Assembly: GCF_003233655.1 (NCBI RefSeq)
Contig: NZ_CP029829.1
Location: forward strand, 692,978-756,977
Reading direction: 5' to 3'
DNA from: Azospirillum ramasamyi
GTDB lineage: Bacteria; Pseudomonadota; Alphaproteobacteria; Azospirillales; Azospirillaceae
Length of the DNA stretch: 64,000 nucleotides
The first letter of the stretch is position 1. Each line of letters starts with the position of its first letter. The translations under genes were made by a program, and so were the position numbers. Positions 4,102 to 21,748 of the stretch are shown one piece after another. Below the pieces are notes generated by a model. It saw nothing but the letters and a program-made list of their open reading frames with translations. It ran no database searches and was not told the DNA's origin.

Positions 4102-4560
4102 TCAGAGATTGCGCTGCGTAACCGCCTGAACCAGAACGTCCTGCACGGCGTCCTTGCCGATGACTTTGCCGGCGGCCTCGATCAATTTGGCCTTTACGGC
4201 AGGAATATTGACCAATGCACCGCTGAGGATCGATTGGTCGGCGATGCCCCCATAGAGAGCGGTAAGGAAGGCGTCGGTCAGGCGCGGCTGGTTGGCCTGG
4301 GCCATCGGCTGCTTGTCCAAACGCACCTCGACCGCCACGACGACGGTCACGAACTGCTCGACTCGGGACGGGCCGATCATCGGCACCACCAGCGGCGGCA
4401 GACGGACGAAGGCGGTGGGGGGCTTCGGCGGCGGCTCCACCTTCTTCGGCGGCGCGTCCGCCTGTTCGGTAAAATACTTTTGGTAGACGAACCAGCCGCC
4501 GAAGCCTGCGCCGCCCAGCAGCACGATGCCCAGGACGAGCACGATCAGGGCCTTGACCAC
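4102..4560 (-). CDS. FliL-like single-pass membrane protein
   Basis: The 152-residue protein starts with one transmembrane helix (about residues 3-28, VKALIVLVLGIVLLGGAGFG), then a proline/lysine linker (APPKKVEPPPKPPTAF) and a soluble domain of about 100 residues with the feel of the FliL/stomatin-like fold (VRLPPLVVPMIGPSRVEQFVTV). FliL proteins sit around the flagellar stator. No other flagellar gene is visible here, so a flagellar role is not supported by context. It lies between thiL (separated by the first 117-bp repeat) and hppA. Confidence 0.75.
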   Translation of the reverse strand: MVKALIVLVLGIVLLGGAGFGGWFVYQKYFTEQADAPPKKVEPPPKPPTAFVRLPPLVVPMIGPSRVEQFVTVVVAVEVRLDKQPMAQANQPRLTDAFLTALYGGIADQSILSGALVNIPAVKAKLIEAAGKVIGKDAVQDVLVQAVTQRNL

Positions 4561-4764: not shown

Positions 4765-5757
4765 TCAGAAATGGTCCCAGCCGCGGCGGGTCAGCGGCAG
4801 GCTGGCTCCGGCGCCGTCCAGTACCGTGACCTCGCCGGGCAGGCCGGGCGTCAGTTCGCCGATCTCGGTGATTGCGACCCCGCTGTGTGCGGCCAGTGCG
4901 GCGAGCGCATCCCGCGCCGAGGGCGGGGCGGTGAACAGCAGCTCGTAATCGTCGCCGCCGGTGATGGCCAGCGCCAGCCGGGCGGGGTCGCCGTCGATGG
5001 CGTCACGCGCCGCATCCGACAGCGGCACCATGCCGGTCCGCAGCAGGGCGGCGCAGCCCGACTCCTCACAGAGATGCCCAAGGTCGGCCACCAGCCCGTC
5101 CGACACGTCCATCGCGCCGCTGGCGAGCCCGATCAGGCGCGGCCCCACCGTCATGCGCGGGTCGGGCCGGCGCAGGCGGCGCAGCAGTTGGGCGCCGGTT
5201 TCCTCATCCGGGATGTCGAGCCGGCCATAGGCGATCTCCAGCCCCAGGGCGGCGTCGCCGATGCAGCCGGTGACGAAGACGCGATCTCCCGGCCGCCCGC
5301 CCCAGCGCGGCAGGGCGCGGCCGGTGGGGACCAGGCCGAAGGCGGTGACCGACAGGGTGATCGGGCCGGTGGTGGAGACCGAATCGCCGCCGGCCAGTGC
5401 GATGCCGAACTGCCGCTGCTCCTCGCCCAACCCGGCGGCGAAGCCTTCCAGCCAGGATTCGTCCAGCCCACGGGGCAGGGCGGTGACCAGCGTGTAGGCC
5501 AGCGGCTCCGCCCCCATGGCGGCGAGGTCGGACAGGTTGCTGCGCATCAGCTTGGCCGCGATGTCGGCCGGCGCATCGTCGGGGAAGAAATGCACCCCGG
5601 CCACGATTGCGTCGGTGGTGACCACCAGTTCCCGCCCCTCCGGCACCCCGAATACGGCGGCATCGTCCCGAAGGCCGCGGGCGCCGGGAAACCCGGCGGC
5701 CAGCGGCTTGAAGAAACGCGTGATGCGGCCGAACTCACCGAGGGGGGGAATGGTCAT
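4765..5757 (-). CDS. thiL: Thiamine-monophosphate kinase
   Basis: ThiL phosphorylates thiamine monophosphate to the active cofactor thiamine pyrophosphate. The 330-residue protein shows the family's N-terminal GEFGRITRFFKPL and the nucleotide/Mg motif RDDAAVFG, followed by the AIR-synthase-type fold with GDSVSTTGPITLSVTAFG, a DVSDGLVADLGHL block near residue 215 and GGDDYELLFTAPP near residue 265. The ATG at 5757 is chosen because MTIPPLGEFGRI is the family start; an 18-codon extension upstream runs into the intergenic gap. nusB lies 50 bp upstream on the same strand, the standard alphaproteobacterial nusB-thiL pair. Confidence 0.97.
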   Translation of the reverse strand: MTIPPLGEFGRITRFFKPLAAGFPGARGLRDDAAVFGVPEGRELVVTTDAIVAGVHFFPDDAPADIAAKLMRSNLSDLAAMGAEPLAYTLVTALPRGLDESWLEGFAAGLGEEQRQFGIALAGGDSVSTTGPITLSVTAFGLVPTGRALPRWGGRPGDRVFVTGCIGDAALGLEIAYGRLDIPDEETGAQLLRRLRRPDPRMTVGPRLIGLASGAMDVSDGLVADLGHLCEESGCAALLRTGMVPLSDAARDAIDGDPARLALAITGGDDYELLFTAPPSARDALAALAAHSGVAITEIGELTPGLPGEVTVLDGAGASLPLTRRGWDHF

Positions 5758-7032: not shown

Positions 7033-8169
7033 GTCGTCGCCGAAGTCGGCTGCACCCGGATTGATGGCGCGGTGGCCGACCACGGTCAGGCCGTAGCCCT
7101 CAAGCCCGATGATCGGCTTCTTGCGGTTCGACAGCAGGATCATCCTGCGCACGCCGAGATCCAGCAGAATCTGCGCGCCGATGCCGTAGTCGCGCAGTTC
7201 CGGCGCGCTGCCGGACTGCCCCTCCAGCCGGGCCTTCAGGACGGTGGACAGTCCGTTGGGGTTCGGCTCGCGCAGCAGCACGACGACGCCGCGTCCTTCC
7301 TTGGCGATCAGCTCCATCGAGGCATGGAGGTCGTTTTCGCGGCCGGAGTTGCGGTCGCCCAGCACGTCGTCCAGCACCGACTGGGCATGCATGCGCACCA
7401 GCACCGGCTCGTCGCCGGAGATGTCGCCGCGCACCAGCGCGATGTGCTCCGCGTACTGGATCTTGTTGATGTAGACGTAGGACTGGAAACGGCCGCCGAA
7501 GCGGCTGTCCAGCGTGCCGGCCAGCACCTGTTCGACGATGGTCTCGGTGCGGCGGCGGTAGGCGATCAGGTCGGCGATGGTGCCCACCTTCAGCCCGTGG
7601 AACTGGGCGAACTGCACCAGATCCGGCAGGCGGGCCATGGTGCCGTCGTCGTTCATGATCTCGCAGATCACCGCCGACGAGGAATGGCCGGACAGCCGGG
7701 CGATGTCGACCGACGCCTCGGTATGGCCGGCGCGGACCAGCACGCCGCCGTCACGCGCCAGCAGCGGGAAGATGTGGCCGGGGGTGGCGAGATCCTGCGG
7801 GCCGGACGCCGGGTCGATGGCGACCGCGATGGTGCGGGCGCGGTCGGCGGCGGAGATGCCGGTGGTGACCCCCTCGCGCGCCTCGATCGAGACGGTGAAG
7901 GCGGTCTGGTGGCGCGACGCGTTCTGCTGCGCCATCAGCGGCAGGCGCAGCCGCTCGATGTTCGGCCGGTCCATGGTGAGGCAGATCAGGCCGCGGCCAT
8001 GCTTGGCCATGAAGTTCACCGCTTCCGGCGTGGCGCAGGAGGCGGGGATCACCAGATCGCCCTCATTCTCCCGGTCCTCGTCGTCGACGAGGATGAACAT
8101 CCTGCCTTGACGCGCCTCTTCGATGATTTCTTCGGCCGTCGACAGGTATTGGTGAAACTCGGACGTCAT
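7030..8169 (-). CDS. ribB: 3,4-dihydroxy-2-butanone-4-phosphate synthase with degenerate GTP cyclohydrolase II domain (RibBX type)
   Basis: The first ~205 residues are a complete DHBP synthase: DDEDRENEGDL, the substrate-site HQTAFTVSIEAREGVTTGIS, GHIFPLLARDGGVLVRAGHTEASVD. It converts ribulose 5-phosphate into the four-carbon riboflavin precursor. The second half resembles GTP cyclohydrolase II but lacks the zinc cysteines: HSEC is replaced by HAQS and the RCDCG region by RNSGREND. It should therefore lack cyclohydrolase activity, matching the RibBX variant known in Proteobacteria, so a separate ribA is expected elsewhere. The start ATG overlaps the ribE stop by 4 bp (ATGA), implying translational coupling. 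Confidence 0.95.
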   Translation of the reverse strand: MTSEFHQYLSTAEEIIEEARQGRMFILVDDEDRENEGDLVIPASCATPEAVNFMAKHGRGLICLTMDRPNIERLRLPLMAQQNASRHQTAFTVSIEAREGVTTGISAADRARTIAVAIDPASGPQDLATPGHIFPLLARDGGVLVRAGHTEASVDIARLSGHSSSAVICEIMNDDGTMARLPDLVQFAQFHGLKVGTIADLIAYRRRTETIVEQVLAGTLDSRFGGRFQSYVYINKIQYAEHIALVRGDISGDEPVLVRMHAQSVLDDVLGDRNSGRENDLHASMELIAKEGRGVVVLLREPNPNGLSTVLKARLEGQSGSAPELRDYGIGAQILLDLGVRRMILLSNRKKPIIGLEGYGLTVVGHRAINPGAADFGDD

Positions 8170-15919: not shown

Positions 15920-16039
15920 AAAAAGAACGCGGCGGGCCGAAGCCCGCCGCACATCTTGTGCCGCAAAGGGAAAACCCCCGCGACGTGTTAACGGAAGGAC
16001 CCCGATCCCCCAGCGGCTAAGCAAGGTGATTGTCTTTCC
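15920..16039 (-). ncRNA. Predicted tracrRNA of the type II-C CRISPR-Cas system
   Basis: Read on the minus strand, bases 16019-15997 match 23 consecutive bases of the CRISPR repeat, and similarity continues to GTTAAC at 15992-15987 with a small bulge, so the anti-repeat covers almost the whole repeat. This gives the lower stem (GUU with AAC), an internal bulge and a long upper stem. Downstream come a GGG/CCC hairpin with a TTTT loop (nexus position), a GCACA-AGA-TGTGC hairpin and a 9-bp GC stem with a UUCG loop (15950-15929) ending in TTCTTTTT, a clear intrinsic terminator. The 5' end near 16039 is inferred from a weak promoter. It is divergent from cas9, 150 bp away. Everything except the exact 5' end is visible in the sequence; expression is not shown. 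Confidence 0.88.
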
Positions 16040-16045
16040 GCGGCA

Positions 16046-16074
16046 AACATCTCATGAGGGATTGTCTCCGTCAA
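16046..16074 (-). promoter_or_regulatory. Candidate tracrRNA promoter
   Basis: On the minus strand TTGACG (16074-16069) is followed after 17 bases by GATGTT, a poor -10 (3 of 6). The position fits a start about 15 bases before the anti-repeat, but the -10 is weak. Confidence 0.3.
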
Positions 16075-16187: not shown

Positions 16188-19100
16188 GTGTCCAAGCGTC
16201 TCCGCTATCGCCTTGCCCTGGATCTCGGCACAAACAGCATCGGGTTCTGTCTGCTCGATCTGAACGGGGATGGCAGGCCCTGCGGAGTGCGCCGCATGGG
16301 CGTTCGCATCTTTCCCGATGGCCGGGATCCGAAATCGCAGCAGTCGCTGGCGGCGGATCGGCGTTTGGCGCGGTCTATGCGCCGGCGCCGCGATCGTTAC
16401 CTTCGTCGGCGCAAGGCCCTGATGAACGCCTTGGTCGCCGCCGCCCTGATGCCGGAGACCCGGCAGGCGCGCAAGGCGTTGGAAGCGCTGGATCCCTATG
16501 AGCTGCGCGCCGCGGCGGTCGCCGGTCCGCTGCCGGCACACCAACTCGGCCGCGCCCTGTTCCATCTGAATCAGCGTCGCGGCTTCAAGAGCAACCGCAA
16601 GGCCGCCGGGGATGAGAATGAGGCGGGCAAGGTCAAGAGCGGCATCTCCGCCCTGAAGGCCGAATTGGCGGCCAGCGGTGCCGGCACGCTCGGCCAATGG
16701 CTCGCGGCCCGTCATGCCTCCCGCCAGCCGGTGCGGGCGAGGCTGACCGGCACCGGGGCCAAGGCGGCCTACAGCTTCTATCCGGACCGCGCGCTGGTCC
16801 ATGAGGAATTCCAGGCGATCCGCGCCGCCCAGGCGCCGCATCATCCCTGCGTCACCGCCGAACAGTGGGACCGGATCGAGAGCGTCATCTTCCACCAGCG
16901 TCCGCTGAAGCCGGTGAAGCCGGGCAAATGCACCCTTTATCCTGCGGAGGAGCGGGCGCCATGGGCGCTGCCGATCGCACAGCGCTTCCGCATCCTGCAT
17001 GAACTGCACAATCTCCGCATCGTCCGGCCGGGGCAGGGGGAGGAGGGGCTGTCGCCGGTTGACTTCGACCGCTTCTATGACCGGCTGTGCCGCAAGGGCG
17101 ACCTGACCTTCAAGACGCTGGCCAAGGAGCTGAAGCTTCCCCCCGACGCCCGCATCAACCTGGAGGATGACAAGCGTGACCGGCTGAAGGGCGACGCCAC
17201 CGCCGACGCGCTGTCGGCCGAAAAGGGCAAGCGCCGGCGGATCGGCGCCGCCTGGCATGGCTTCCCGGCCGACCGGCAGCGCGGGATCGTCGGCCGCCTG
17301 ATCGATGCCGAGGATGAGGGGGAACTGGCCGGCTGGCTGGTGGAGGAACTGGGGCTGCCGTGGGAGGTGGCGATCCTGACGGCCGAGCGGCCGGGCCTGC
17401 CGGACGGCTATTGCCGGCTCAGTGAAAAGGCGCTGGAGCAGGTGGTGCCGCTGATGCACGAGGAGCATCTGCCCTATGACGAGGCGGTCCGCGCGCTCGG
17501 CCTGCATCATTCCGACCATCGCCCGGACGATCTGCTCGACGAGCTGCCTTATTACGGCGTCCCGCTGGAGCGCTTCATCGCCTTCGGCACCGGCGAGGCG
17601 GATGACCCGCCGGAACTGCGGATCGGCCGCTTTCCCAACCCTACCGTCCATGTCGCGTTGAACGAGTTGCGGCGGGTGGTGAACCGGATCATCCGGCGCT
17701 GGGGCAAGCCGGAGGAGATCGTGGTGGAGCTGGCCCGCGATCTCAAGCAGAGCCGCGCCGACCGTGACAAGGAACAGCGCGAGCAGGCGCTGAACCAGAA
17801 GAAGAACCGGACGCGGGTCGAGCAGCTTCGCGAATTGGGCATTGAGCCGACCGGCGAGGCGCTGCTGCGGCTGCGGCTGTGGGAGGAACTGCCGCGAATC
17901 GGCAGCGCCCATGTCTGCGTCTATACCGGCCAGCCGATCAGCATGACGCAGCTGCTGCAAGGCGATGTGGACGTCGATCACATCCTGCCCTTCAGCCGGA
18001 CGCTGGCCAACGGCGCCGACAACAAGATCGTCTGCCACCGCCGCGCCAACCGCATCAAGCGCAACCGGACGCCGTGGGAGGCGTTCGGCGTCGTCCCCGC
18101 CGACGGCTATGATTGGTCCGCCATCGCCGAACGCGCCGAGTCGCTTCCCCAGAACAAGCGCTGGCGCTTCCTGCCCAATGCGATGGAGCGATTCGAGAAG
18201 GACCGGGGATTCATCGACCGGCAACTTGTCGAAACCCGGCACCTGTCCAGGGTTGCCCGCGAGTATCTCGGCTGCATCGTGCCGCTGGAGAAGGTGAGGG
18301 CCGCCCCCGGCCGGCTGACGGCGATGCTGCGCGGCCGATGGGGGCTGAACGCCATCCTGTCCGACGCCAATCTGAAAAACCGGTCGGATCATCGCCACCA
18401 TGCCGTCGATGCCGCCGTGCTGGGGGTGATCGACCAGCGGCTGGTGCAGAGGGTGGCCGACGCCGCCAAGCGGGCGGAAGAGAGGGAACTGGAAAAGCTG
18501 TTCGACGGTCTGCCCGACCCGTTCGACGGCTTGCCCGGCCCGTCCTTCCGGGAACAGGTCCAGGACAGGGTGCAGGGGATCATCGTGTCCCACAAGCCCG
18601 AACATGGCTGGCAAGGGCGGATGCACAACGACACCGCCTATGGCCCGGTCGAGCGGCTGCCCGACGGAACCCATCGGGTGGTGACGCGCAAGCCGCTGGG
18701 GTCGCTCGTCGAAAAGGACTTCGGGAACATCCGCGACCGTGCCCTCGCCGCGGCGCTGGAACGCCATGTCGCCGAACAGGCGGCGCAGGGGCGCGGCCTG
18801 GGCGAGGCGCTGTCCTGCTTCACCTGGACGGGCGGAGAGGTGCGCCGCGTCCGCATGCTGGACAAGCTGGGCAGCCCCGTCGCGGTCCGGGACGAGGGTG
18901 GGCGGACCTTCAAGTTCTACAAGGGCGACAGCAACGCCTGGTACGAGATCCTGCGCGACGGGCGCGGGCGTTGGACGGGACGGGTCGTCAGCACCTATGA
19001 GGCCTACCGGCTTCACGCCGAATGGCTGGCCGAGAGGACCGACCGTGGGCGGGACGATGCCGCTTTCCCGGACTGGGCGGCGGGCCGGCTGTGCGCCGGC

Positions 19101-19373
19101 ATCGGCACGCCGCTGTTCCGCCTGTTCAAGGGCGACATGCTGGCCTTCGGAACCGCGCCGAATCGGGAAATCCTGCGGGTGGTCAAGTTCACGGACGGGC
19201 AAATCACCTTCGCCGGCCATCGGGAGGCTGGAAACCTCAAGGCGCGGGATGCCGACAAGGAGGATCCGTTCAAGTACCGCTACTGTTCGCCCGAGGCCTT
19301 GCGCAAGGCGCAGGCGCGGCCGGTGGGGGTGGACCCCGCCGGCTTCGTCCATGACCGCGGGCCGTTGGAGTAG
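16188..19373 (+). CDS. cas9: CRISPR-associated endonuclease Cas9, compact type II-C
   Basis: RNA-guided nuclease of 1061 residues that would cut DNA matching the crRNA with its tracrRNA partner. Domains in order: RuvC-I with D12 (RLALDLGTNSIGFCL); an arginine-rich bridge helix near residues 60-80 (RSMRRRRDRYLRRRKAL); a recognition lobe to about 480; RuvC-II with E514 (EEIVVELARDLKQSR); HNH with H598 (VDVDHILPFSRTL) and N621; RuvC-III with H738 and D741 (HRHHAVDAAVL); then about 300 residues of wedge and PAM-interacting region. All expected catalytic residues are present, so it should be active. Start GTG 16188 is chosen because GGGAGGAA ends 7 bases upstream and the RuvC motif follows at once; ATG 16149 would add 13 residues. 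cas1 starts 3 bp after the stop. No csn2 or cas4 is present, which defines subtype II-C. Confidence 0.97.
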   Translation: MSKRLRYRLALDLGTNSIGFCLLDLNGDGRPCGVRRMGVRIFPDGRDPKSQQSLAADRRLARSMRRRRDRYLRRRKALMNALVAAALMPETRQARKALEALDPYELRAAAVAGPLPAHQLGRALFHLNQRRGFKSNRKAAGDENEAGKVKSGISALKAELAASGAGTLGQWLAARHASRQPVRARLTGTGAKAAYSFYPDRALVHEEFQAIRAAQAPHHPCVTAEQWDRIESVIFHQRPLKPVKPGKCTLYPAEERAPWALPIAQRFRILHELHNLRIVRPGQGEEGLSPVDFDRFYDRLCRKGDLTFKTLAKELKLPPDARINLEDDKRDRLKGDATADALSAEKGKRRRIGAAWHGFPADRQRGIVGRLIDAEDEGELAGWLVEELGLPWEVAILTAERPGLPDGYCRLSEKALEQVVPLMHEEHLPYDEAVRALGLHHSDHRPDDLLDELPYYGVPLERFIAFGTGEADDPPELRIGRFPNPTVHVALNELRRVVNRIIRRWGKPEEIVVELARDLKQSRADRDKEQREQALNQKKNRTRVEQLRELGIEPTGEALLRLRLWEELPRIGSAHVCVYTGQPISMTQLLQGDVDVDHILPFSRTLANGADNKIVCHRRANRIKRNRTPWEAFGVVPADGYDWSAIAERAESLPQNKRWRFLPNAMERFEKDRGFIDRQLVETRHLSRVAREYLGCIVPLEKVRAAPGRLTAMLRGRWGLNAILSDANLKNRSDHRHHAVDAAVLGVIDQRLVQRVADAAKRAEERELEKLFDGLPDPFDGLPGPSFREQVQDRVQGIIVSHKPEHGWQGRMHNDTAYGPVERLPDGTHRVVTRKPLGSLVEKDFGNIRDRALAAALERHVAEQAAQGRGLGEALSCFTWTGGEVRRVRMLDKLGSPVAVRDEGGRTFKFYKGDSNAWYEILRDGRGRWTGRVVSTYEAYRLHAEWLAERTDRGRDDAAFPDWAAGRLCAGIGTPLFRLFKGDMLAFGTAPNREILRVVKFTDGQITFAGHREAGNLKARDADKEDPFKYRYCSPEALRKAQARPVGVDPAGFVHDRGPLE

Positions 19374-19376
19374 GTC

Positions 19377-20360
19377 ATGGCGAGCGCCGCCGGAATCGTG
19401 GTGGAGGTGGCCGAGGACGGACGGCATCTGTCGCTCGACCGTGGTTTCATGGTGGTGTCGGAAAAGGGGCGCGAGCTTGGCCGCGTCCCTCTCGACGACA
19501 TGGCGGTGCTGATCGCCACCGCCCATGGGTTGACCTATTCCAACAATCTGCTGCTGGCCCTGCTGGAACGGGATTGTTCGGTCATCCTGTGCGGGCGGAA
19601 TTTCACCCCGGCAGCCATCCTTTGGCCGCTGGACGGCCATCACATCCAGGCCCAGCGCATGCGGGCGCAGGCGGACATCACCGATGCCTTCAAGCGCCGG
19701 CTGTGGCAGGCCATCGCCCGTGCGAAGGTCCGCAATCAGGGGGCGATCCTCCAGGCGCTCGGCCATTCCGCCGGCGCGTTCGAGGAACTGGCCCGAAAGA
19801 TGCGGACCGGCGACCCGGAGAACATCGAGGCGCAGGCGGCGCGGCGCTACTGGCCCCTGCTGTTCGGGCCGGATTTTCGGCGCGATGCCGAGGAACCGGG
19901 TATCAATGGGCTGTTGAACTATGGCTATGCCGTGCTGCGCGGCGGTACAGCGCGGGCGACTGCTGCCGCCGGACTGCATCCGAGCCTTGGGCTGAAGCAT
20001 TCCAACCGCTCCAACCCCATGTGTCTGGTCGACGATCTGCTGGAGCCGTTCCGGCCCATGGTGGATATCGCCGTCCACCGTATGGTCTCGGATGGGCTTC
20101 TGGAGGTCGATCGCGAGACGAAGCGGATCCTGGCCGGGCTGCTGGTGCAGGACTTGCGGACGGATGCCGGGGTGACGCCGCTTTCCACCTGCCTGTTTCG
20201 GCTGGCGACATCGCTCGCACAGGTTCTTTCCGGCGAACGCCAGGTTCTCGACCTTCCGCTGTCGCCGCTTCCCCTCGAAATAATTCGTGGTCCGTCAGCC
20301 AAGGAGGGCGCGCATGTCACTCAGCGCGTATCGGCTCATGTGGATGATGGTGATGTTTGA
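19377..20360 (+). CDS. cas1: CRISPR integrase Cas1
   Basis: Cas1 with Cas2 inserts new spacers into the array. The 327-residue protein has an N-terminal beta domain (LDRGFMVVSEKGRELGRVPLDDMAVL) and the helical catalytic domain with the metal ligands E151 (NIEAQAARRYWPLLFG), H208 (GLKHSNRSNPMCLVDDLL) and E223 (LLEPFRPMVD). The motif GINGLLNYGYAVLRG is also diagnostic. Its C-terminus overlaps the cas2 start by 47 bp, so the two are likely translated together. Length is slightly above the usual 300, because of the overlapped tail. Confidence 0.96.
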   Translation: MASAAGIVVEVAEDGRHLSLDRGFMVVSEKGRELGRVPLDDMAVLIATAHGLTYSNNLLLALLERDCSVILCGRNFTPAAILWPLDGHHIQAQRMRAQADITDAFKRRLWQAIARAKVRNQGAILQALGHSAGAFEELARKMRTGDPENIEAQAARRYWPLLFGPDFRRDAEEPGINGLLNYGYAVLRGGTARATAAAGLHPSLGLKHSNRSNPMCLVDDLLEPFRPMVDIAVHRMVSDGLLEVDRETKRILAGLLVQDLRTDAGVTPLSTCLFRLATSLAQVLSGERQVLDLPLSPLPLEIIRGPSAKEGAHVTQRVSAHVDDGDV

Positions 20361-20643
20361 CCTGCCGACCGTCACCAAAGCCGATCAGAAAGCGGCGACT
20401 CGGTTCCGTAATTTTCTGTTGGATGAGGGCTTCGAGATGTCGCAATTCAGCGTCTACATGCGCTTCTGCGCCGGCGCTCCGCAGGTCGAGGCGCGAATCG
20501 GACGGATCAGGTCCAACCTGCCGAAGCGGGGAAAGGTGCAGATCCTGACCTTCACCGACCGTCAGTATCAGACGATGGTGTGCTTCGACACGCGCACGAA
20601 ACAAGAACCTGCCGCAAAATATGAACAGTTCAAGCTGTTTTGA
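20314..20643 (+). CDS. cas2: CRISPR-associated protein Cas2
   Basis: The 109-residue protein has the ferredoxin-like Cas2 fold, with the conserved aspartate in MWMMVMFDLPTVTKADQKAA and the second half GFEMSQFSVYMRFC and RGKVQILTFTDRQY. It scaffolds the Cas1 integrase. ATG 20314 is chosen for its excellent AAGGAGG 6 bases upstream, which lies inside cas1. The first CRISPR repeat begins 74 bp after the stop. Confidence 0.96.
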   Translation: MSLSAYRLMWMMVMFDLPTVTKADQKAATRFRNFLLDEGFEMSQFSVYMRFCAGAPQVEARIGRIRSNLPKRGKVQILTFTDRQYQTMVCFDTRTKQEPAAKYEQFKLF

Positions 20644-20717: not shown

Positions 20718-21609
20718 ATTGTAGCCGCTGGGGGATCGGGGTCCAGCCGCAACACTACAATGCGCTGGGCCGCACCGAAGGGCATTGTAGCCGCTGGGGG
20801 ATCGGGGTCCAGCCGCAACGGTCCACCAGTTCCACACGTTGTGTTCCGGATTGTAGCCGCTGGGGGATCGGGGTCCAGCCGCAACACATCCATGCGATGG
20901 TGGTGCCGCTGGACAATTGTAGCCGCTGGGGGATCGGGGTCCAGCCGCAACTGGAGACAGACAGATGACCGACAAGATTTCATTGTAGCCGCTGGGGGAT
21001 CGGGGTCCAGCCGCAACGACGACGCTCGACACGCTGAACGAACTTGCATTGTAGCCGCTGGGGGATCGGGGTCCAGCCGCAACTGGACGGGCATGGTGTC
21101 GATGCGTTCGGCATTGTAGCCGCTGGGGGATCGGGGTCCAGCCGCAACCTCACGCATGGCAAATCATGAACAAAACCAATTGTAGCCGCTGGGGGATCGG
21201 GGTCCAGCCGCAACCGCCGGCCGAGCGGCCCGCGTCATGGGCGAATTGTAGCCGCTGGGGGATCGGGGTCCAGCCGCAACTCATGGAAGTCATTGCCGTT
21301 GTGGACCGGGATTGTAGCCGCTGGGGGATCGGGGTCCAGCCGCAACTCTGGCTTGATCGACTTGGACCGGCGCTTAATTGTAGCCGCTGGGGGATCGGGG
21401 TCCAGCCGCAACCATGATGAGAAGCAGGTACGCGCCGTGCAGATTGTAGCCGCTGGGGGATCGGGGTCCAGCCGCAACGTCCACCACGTCCGGTCTCGTG
21501 ATGGCCCCATTGTAGCCGCTGGGGGATCGGGGTCCAGCCGCAACACCGTGGTGCTCAAGGTGCGGGCGTCGGGTATTGTAGCCGCTGGGGGATCGGGGTC
21601 CATCTCAAC
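20718..21609 (-). CRISPR. Type II-C CRISPR array: 14 repeats of 36 bp, 13 spacers
   Basis: Repeats start at 20718, 20784, 20850, 20916, 20982, 21048, 21113, 21179, 21245, 21311, 21377, 21443, 21509 and 21575. The first 13 are identical; the last (21575-21609) is degenerate over its final bases. Twelve spacers are 30 nt and one (21084-21112) is 29 nt. In crRNA orientation (minus strand, set by the anti-repeat match and by similarity to the Neisseria repeat, GTTG...CTACAAT) the repeat starts GTTGCGGCTGGACC and ends CAGCGGCTACAAT. TGGACC and TACAAT lie 16 bases apart within each repeat, resembling an internal promoter. Transcription thus runs towards cas2. Spacer targets cannot be told from here; all spacers differ from each other. 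Confidence 0.98.
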
Positions 21610-21691: not shown

Positions 21692-21717
21692 ATTGTAGCG
21701 GCGGGGCAGGGGGGCTG
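21692..21717 (-). repeat. Decayed CRISPR repeat remnant beyond the array
   Basis: The plus strand reads ATTGTAGCGGCGGGGCAGGG here, matching the first eight bases of the repeat (ATTGTAGC) and then resembling its G-rich middle. It lies 82 bp beyond the last repeat. In crRNA orientation it keeps the CTACAAT end, so it looks like an older repeat that has lost the rest. Confidence 0.55.
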
Positions 21718-21748
21718 AAAGAAGCATTGGAAACAGTGATTTTTGTGT

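Follow-up and report, generated by a model that had tools for sequence, protein, structure and literature searches.

The question raised by this locus is whether the minus strand just upstream of a cas9 gene of Azospirillum ramasamyi encodes a tracrRNA and, if so, whether that RNA is out of the ordinary. An earlier note, made from the letters of the DNA, had proposed both. The window analysed here is a stretch of 64,000 nucleotides, and positions 15920–16039 on its minus strand almost certainly encode the tracrRNA for a CRISPR-Cas9 system of type II-C. This identification, and with it the earlier view that a complete tracrRNA adjoins cas9, is based on pairing with the CRISPR repeat, conservation of position and strand in related loci, covariation of the anti-repeat with the repeat and within the nexus, a promoter, a terminator and the gene context. 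The second proposal fared less well: the RNA is an ordinary, well-formed tracrRNA of an already known kind, to which that of EHCas9 also belongs. The features are collected in Table 1.

Table 1. Features of the cas9 locus in the window, and of single-guide-like elements in three related loci
Feature	Position	Strand	Basis and remarks
cas9	16188..19373	+	1061 aa, likely start GTG 16188; profile matches and motifs
cas1 (type II)	19377..20360	+	Profile matches
cas2	20314..20643	+	Profile matches
-35 element TTGACG	16069..16074	-	TTGAC kept in all of 7 aligned loci (window among them)
Extended -10 TGAGATGTT (TG-n-GATGTT)	16046..16054	-	Hexamer 17 bases after the -35
tracrRNA gene, ~120 nt	15920..16039	-	Predicted 5' end near 16039 from promoter; 3' end from terminator
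5' leader GGAAAGACAATCACCTTGCT, partly conserved (GGAAnGACAATnnCCTTGCT)	16020..16039	-	Alignment of loci
Anti-repeat upper stem, 23 consecutive repeat bases	15997..16019	-	Sequence and cofold
2x2 internal loop	15995-15996	-	Cofold
Lower stem CCGTTAAC	15987..15994	-	Cofold: CCG and UAAC pair with crRNA CGG and GUUG, one U bulged
Nexus-like hairpin, 10 pairs	15960..15984	-	Folds and compensatory changes in relatives
Conserved linker ACAAGATG	15952..15959	-	Conservation
Terminator hairpin GCGGCGGGC-UUCG-GCCCGCCGC	15929..15950	-	Terminator scan, conservation
T-rich tail TTCTTTTT	15920..15927	-	Sequence
CRISPR array	20718..21609	- (crRNA sense, spacer-GTTGCGGCTGGACCCCGATCCCCCAGCGGCTACAAT)	13 exact repeats (36 nt), then a degenerate repeat at the cas-distal end; 13 spacers
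Candidate -10 TACAAT of putative repeat-embedded promoter	21575..21580	-	crRNA-sense 3' end of terminal repeat
Relic repeat, retains ATTGTAGC exactly	21692..21727	+	Sequence
L092 element GTTGCCGCTGGAACC-ggat-GGTCCACCGGTTAAC, then nexus, linker, terminator	5411 to ~5300 (G056:C135)	-	Beside ordinary tracrRNA
L102 element, cut in terminator by contig end	69 to 1 (G024:C13)	-	Pattern search
L127 element, GTTGCAGA paired with TCTGCTAAC, compensated handle	3987 to ~3880 (G345:C1)	-	Locus scan

The gene context is that of a complete type II locus. Cas9 matches profile TIGR01865 at 1.2e-169, with domain matches to HNH_4 and RuvC_III, and carries the expected RuvC and HNH motifs (DLGTNS, VVELARD, DVDHILP and HHAVDA). 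Solved Cas9 structures are similar in sequence, the best being 9ar4 (4.4e-70), and Cas1 matches the type II model TIGR03639. The order cas9-cas1-cas2 is intact and leads straight into the CRISPR array. There is no csn2 or cas4 in this operon; of the flanking genes, the search covered four (plsX, IHF alpha, a MerR-like gene and ohr). The tracrRNA and cas9 are read divergently, as the earlier note had said. Of the Cas9 proteins from the eight named loci in the genome collection, the nearest are those of Azospirillum oryzae A2P (94% identical over the full length, with an identical repeat) and Azospirillum sp. B21 (95% identical over residues 1–770, up to a contig end).

The same 36-nt repeat is found in nine loci: the window, seven of the same genus including A. 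oryzae, and Skermanella aerolata (L083–L090 besides the window). The other eight Cas9 proteins that go with this repeat are just 71–94% identical to the window Cas9.

The anti-repeat starts some 170 nt ahead of the cas9 start codon, inside the CRISPR-cas locus and separate from the array. As claimed, 23 consecutive bases of the local 36-nt repeat recur there. Below them cofolding places an internal loop of 2x2 and then a lower stem of 7 bp (GUUGCGG with CCGuUAAC), which agrees with the bulged lower part ending in GTTAAC that had been described. The predicted duplex between the crRNA-sense repeat and the whole tracrRNA is at -65.4 kcal/mol. The earlier note had suggested a comparison with shuffled sequence, and the duplex lies far outside that range: 300 dinucleotide shuffles gave a mean of -34.3, a standard deviation of 3.8 and a minimum of -46.7 kcal/mol. 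Real sequence was used as a second background, by taking 6,248 other 120-nt stretches of the window on both strands in steps of 20, with the array and the tracrRNA's own place removed; the best of these reached -48.9 kcal/mol.

No rival anti-repeat turned up in the genome. Searching the 6.3 Mb of the eight contigs with a 92-nt RNA returned the RNA itself and the 14 array repeats. The 18-base core has exact matches in the anti-repeat and the array, and a further 44 places match with two or three mismatches, against 17 places for the reversed pattern. Neither search found a better anti-repeat elsewhere, which had been named as a possible objection. In Rfam there was no tracrRNA match between 14500 and 22500 at E values up to 1.

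To set the locus among its relatives, Cas9 searches were run at an E value of 1e-30 or better, and these found a match in 26 of 82 family genomes and 57 of 385 class genomes, the organism's own included. We examined 60 loci (8 named and 52 fetched), 46 with a readable array and 14 without one. Duplicates were dropped (L017 is L084, L018 is L090, and L019 is L091). Adding the window to the 46 and removing two duplicates leaves 45 loci with a readable array. In 44 of these, the window included, a minus-strand anti-repeat lies upstream of cas9: it is 66–481 nt from the gene in 41 loci, and L023, L092 and L109 were added later. The sole locus without one, L022, is on a contig that begins inside cas9.

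The anti-repeat changes together with the repeat. For the energy tests, L118 and L129 were left out because the repeat extracted from them was not 36 nt, and L022, L023, L092 and L109 were left out by position. In 28 of the remaining 39 systems, the best-pairing of 28 distinct 36-nt repeats was the system's own, and in the other 11 a repeat from elsewhere scored equally well or better, the own one ranking second to fifth. Over repeat positions 9–24 an anti-repeat pairs with its own repeat at 97% of positions on average (minimum 81%), compared with 66% when repeats are swapped, which argues that the anti-repeat follows the repeat in evolution. This bears on the idea that the element is a relic inverted CRISPR repeat and not a working RNA. 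Degenerate repeats do occur at the locus (at 21575 and 21692), but the relatives keep the position, strand, promoter, scaffold and terminator of the element while its anti-repeat tracks the repeat, and we regard a relic as very improbable.

The tracrRNA reading is further supported by the scaffold that follows the anti-repeat. In 37 of 41 predicted folds a single hairpin lies between GTTAAC and the terminator. The exceptions are L122 and L127, which have none, L121, which has two, and L132, which has three; in a few systems, for example L117, the single hairpin lies away from the usual place. In a second clade of seven sequences all 105 nexus and terminator cells pair, and both sides have changed in five pairs, four of them in the nexus. 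Among 500 shuffles the observed covariation score was reached by none, the pair count by 6 and the number of pair types by 203. In the window's own clade, all 10 nexus pairs are kept in the six loci that were paired by hand, with replacements of G-C by A-U, C-G by U-A, and G-C by A-U. Three close loci remain: L089 has the same nexus stretch as L087, and the folds of L084 and L090 are in another register. The comparison thus yields a covariation-backed consensus for the window's group of tracrRNAs.

The earlier note had drawn two small hairpins in this region, and here the folds differ from it. The window RNA when folded and the RNAalifold consensus of the nine close loci each show one nexus hairpin before the terminator, and neither has a second small one. 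The second was presumably the pairing GCAC/GTGC, which we reject: it overlaps the linker CACAAGATG, a stretch of conserved sequence in which no local hairpin is predicted. The terminator itself, a Rho-independent one, is as previously described, with a 9-bp stem, a UUCG loop and then a run of T; the stem is made of G+C.

At the other end of the gene there is a conserved promoter-like sequence. In the -10 region of seven aligned loci, window included, the TG and the second (A) and sixth (T) bases of the hexamer are invariant. The nine close loci all have a -35 of the form TTGAC(A/G) and a spacing of 17, with the TG in eight of them, and in all nine the -10 ends 26 bases before the anti-repeat match. 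More widely, TTGAC lies at most 70 bases upstream in 30 of 41 systems and is missing there in 11; the mean promoter score of the 41 systems is 8.9, compared with 6.3 for shuffles. The window -10, GATGTT, agrees with TATAAT at three of six positions, and a general promoter scan of the window did not list the tracrRNA promoter. The conserved arrangement TTGACG-17-TGnGATGTT is what we predict, from sequence, to be the divergent promoter of the tracrRNA, which would place the RNA start near 16039.

A further observation concerns L023 (a Methylobacterium MAG), where the tracrRNA promoter region, at 7690–7760, looks like a degenerate repeat in line with the anti-repeat. Another repeat-like stretch is found further upstream of it.

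A further possibility is that the element acts mainly in cis on the plus strand, as an attenuator or a structure in the 5' leader of cas9. Its place upstream of cas9 would suit such a role, as would its hairpins, which appear to be palindromic. However, the sole terminator from the scan is on the minus strand, and the pairing partner is an array 4.7 kb away that covaries with the element. A cis element is therefore scarcely credible, less so even than a relic, and we continue with a tracrRNA.

Is this tracrRNA unusual? It had been suggested that the high GC content and the long stem make a scaffold of exceptional stability. Comparison with 38 other systems rules this out. The duplex energy of the window is tied at ranks 7–12 of 39 systems (range -40.9 to -70.0, median -60.2 kcal/mol), and runs of at least 23 consecutive matches are found in 20 of the 38 others, 13 of them longer and the longest 28. 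Nor does the GC content stand out, the repeat being at 67% and the window as a whole at 67%. In S. pyogenes the tracrRNA is described as having 24 nt of complementarity to the repeat (PMC3890593). The same source describes RNase III as cutting inside the repeat/anti-repeat duplex in several type II systems; the native guide may therefore lack part of the stem.

The anti-repeat has the sense of the plus strand of the array. It can thus pair only with minus-strand transcripts, and by inference the crRNAs must be transcribed against the cas operon. An array read opposite to the operon is described as a possibility in types II-B and II-C (PMC3936727). The tracrRNA would in this way fix the crRNA strand, and with it the set of guide components is complete for this alphaproteobacterial Cas9, a GC-rich one.

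The repeats themselves offer a possible source for such transcripts. The TACAAT hexamer is identical in each of the 14 repeats of the array. Among 32 distinct repeats, read in the crRNA sense, T31 and A32 are found in all 32 and T36 in 31, positions 33–35 being variable; a TGGACC 16 bases upstream of this TAnnnT hexamer is mostly conserved (27 to 32 of 32 at each position). The pattern perhaps fits one predicted promoter per repeat. Promoters within repeats have been demonstrated in C. jejuni, and N. meningitidis is reported to have them too, according to the accounts in PMC3656092, PMC5006608 and PMC8616872. The decay of the terminal repeats points the same way. In the window the cas-distal copy (21575–21609) is degenerate at the handle end only, and over 34 arrays the cas-distal copies have no mismatches at plus-sense positions 1–7 and 68 at positions 29–36; cas-proximal copies have 8 mismatches in total, 6 of them in L097. 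The decay is only suggestive of embedded promoters, because the mismatches climb gradually towards the outer end. Erosion from that end would give a similar result, and some of the conserved repeat bases also pair with the anti-repeat.

The spacers of the array gave few clues to their origin: against phages, the best 20 of 32 matches were at E values of 0.3 or worse, and against plasmids, all of 14 matches were at 0.3 or worse apart from two strong ones. Those two adjoin a cas9 gene, one in Azospirillum thermophilum and the other in a Sphingobium, and we take them for the arrays of these bacteria.

We thus infer the following mechanism. The divergent promoter TTGACG-17-extended -10 would start an RNA near 16039, which would end at the terminator. 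Its anti-repeat would pair with the repeat part of minus-strand crRNAs, perhaps made from one promoter per repeat, to give the 23-bp upper stem, the 2x2 loop and the bulged 7-bp lower stem, and a host RNase would process the duplex. The nexus hairpin, linker and terminator would form the scaffold gripped by Cas9, and the guided Cas9 would cut DNA that matches the spacer. The predicted RNA ends can be tested, and the conserved scaffold could serve in designing guides.

The closest described system is EHCas9, from a metagenome. As described in PMC10281378, it is like the window in being of type II-C, with the genes cas9-cas1-cas2 and 36-bp repeats, and in having upstream of cas9 a tracrRNA gene with an anti-repeat, a predicted promoter and a terminator. 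EHCas9 has 1070 aa, close to the 1061 of the window Cas9, and its closest homologues are in Alphaproteobacteria. Its sgRNA has two stem-loops after the anti-repeat, as does the window RNA with its nexus and terminator. EHCas9 has been tested both in vitro and inside cells, with a guide modelled on the biochemically validated one of Sulfitobacter donghicola. The likeness of the window to both is one of description (PMC10281378).

Other systems share parts of this arrangement. The II-C locus of Bordetella pseudohinzii, as described in PMC4624362, also has a divergent putative tracrRNA upstream of cas9-cas1-cas2, 36-nt repeats with 29–30-nt spacers and an altered terminal repeat; its GC content is below that of its genome, whereas the repeat in the window matches the window. 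In C. jejuni every repeat is described as carrying a -10-like hexamer at its 3' end in the crRNA sense (PMC3656092, PMC5006608, PMC8616872), as here, but the window repeat is GC-rich, its TACAAT lacks the preceding GG of C. jejuni (GGTAAAAT), and a -35-like TGGACC lies 16 bases upstream. S. pyogenes belongs to type II-A, with its 24 nt of complementarity close to the 23 of the window. It has in addition a long form, tracr-L, which is described as repressing the cas promoter through an 11-nt match (PMC3890593, PMC8616872); none was found in the window. In its treatment of tracr-L, a 2021 review gives it as not found outside II-A (PMC8616872). Our literature search found no paper on a tracrRNA of Azospirillum, and an earlier prediction may exist; where PMC5006608 touches on the genus, it does so solely for plasmid matches.

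Three of the relatives go beyond the plain form. Natural elements resembling a single-guide RNA are present in 3 of 58 loci scanned (L092, L102 and L127). Each has a repeat-like handle (for example GTTGCCGCTGGAACC), a short loop, an anti-repeat and then the same kind of scaffold, and lies upstream of the ordinary tracrRNA. The 11–13 bases preceding the handle, as a candidate guide, match a place on the plus strand 50–235 nt away. In L092 the last 12 guide bases match 5462–5473 at 12 of 12 positions, followed by AGG; in L102 it is 11 of 11 at 201–211, followed by GCA; and in L127 12 of 13 at 4221–4233, followed by ACA. As the bases after the three matches differ, no common PAM is seen. Apart from the guide itself, each matched sequence is present a single time in its own locus, and it is absent from about 720 kb of other loci, duplicates included; the match lengths were chosen after the matches were seen.

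The elements were not all found in the same way. A regular expression for the scaffold found its motif in 46 of the 58 loci and missed the L102 and L127 elements, which came from later scans. One later scan gave 11 rows, of which four were the three elements and seven, downstream of cas9, were judged by eye to be array repeats or chance. A pattern search for the fusion of handle and anti-repeat matched 2 of 82 genomes in the family (G024, which is L102, and G056, which is L092) compared with 0 of 82 for the reversed pattern. In the class it matched 1 of 385 (G181) compared with 3 of 385 for the reversed pattern, so the class match may be due to chance.

We therefore weighed whether the window tracrRNA also regulates genes, in the way of a long-form tracrRNA or a scaRNA-like RNA. 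In favour are the three related loci, with their partial targets near cas9, and the partly conserved 5' leader of the window RNA. Against it, the window genome has no match to the fusion pattern, its locus being of the plain form. Self-pairing between leader and anti-repeat looks plausible by eye but does not rise above shuffles (z of -0.47 in the window; median z of -0.47 over 41 systems, with 6 of 41 below -1.5), and we reject it. A regulatory function of the window RNA is thus unlikely, and a tracrRNA serving as guide partner remains our reading. For the family as a whole we make a more open proposal, to which we give slightly less than even weight: that natural single-guide RNAs have arisen from it again and again in type II-C systems. 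Such RNAs may lead Cas9 to sites that it binds but does not cut, with repression of cas genes or their neighbours as the result, like that by tracr-L in II-A. If the three elements work, they would extend Cas9 self-regulation to type II-C.

A few minor observations may be added. In L106 (G044:C5), cas9 is annotated and matched as two pieces, and the locus nonetheless retains its tracrRNA and 31 identical repeats. Genome G037 has two type II loci (L091 and L101) from different clades, with Cas9 proteins 95% (a fragment) and 47% identical to that of the window. Finally, downstream of the matched place in L102 there is a plus-strand ORF (227–388) that ends in MISQLVILLILALSVIKRLLDLLG, which may be a small hydrophobic peptide starting at an internal ATG of the ORF.
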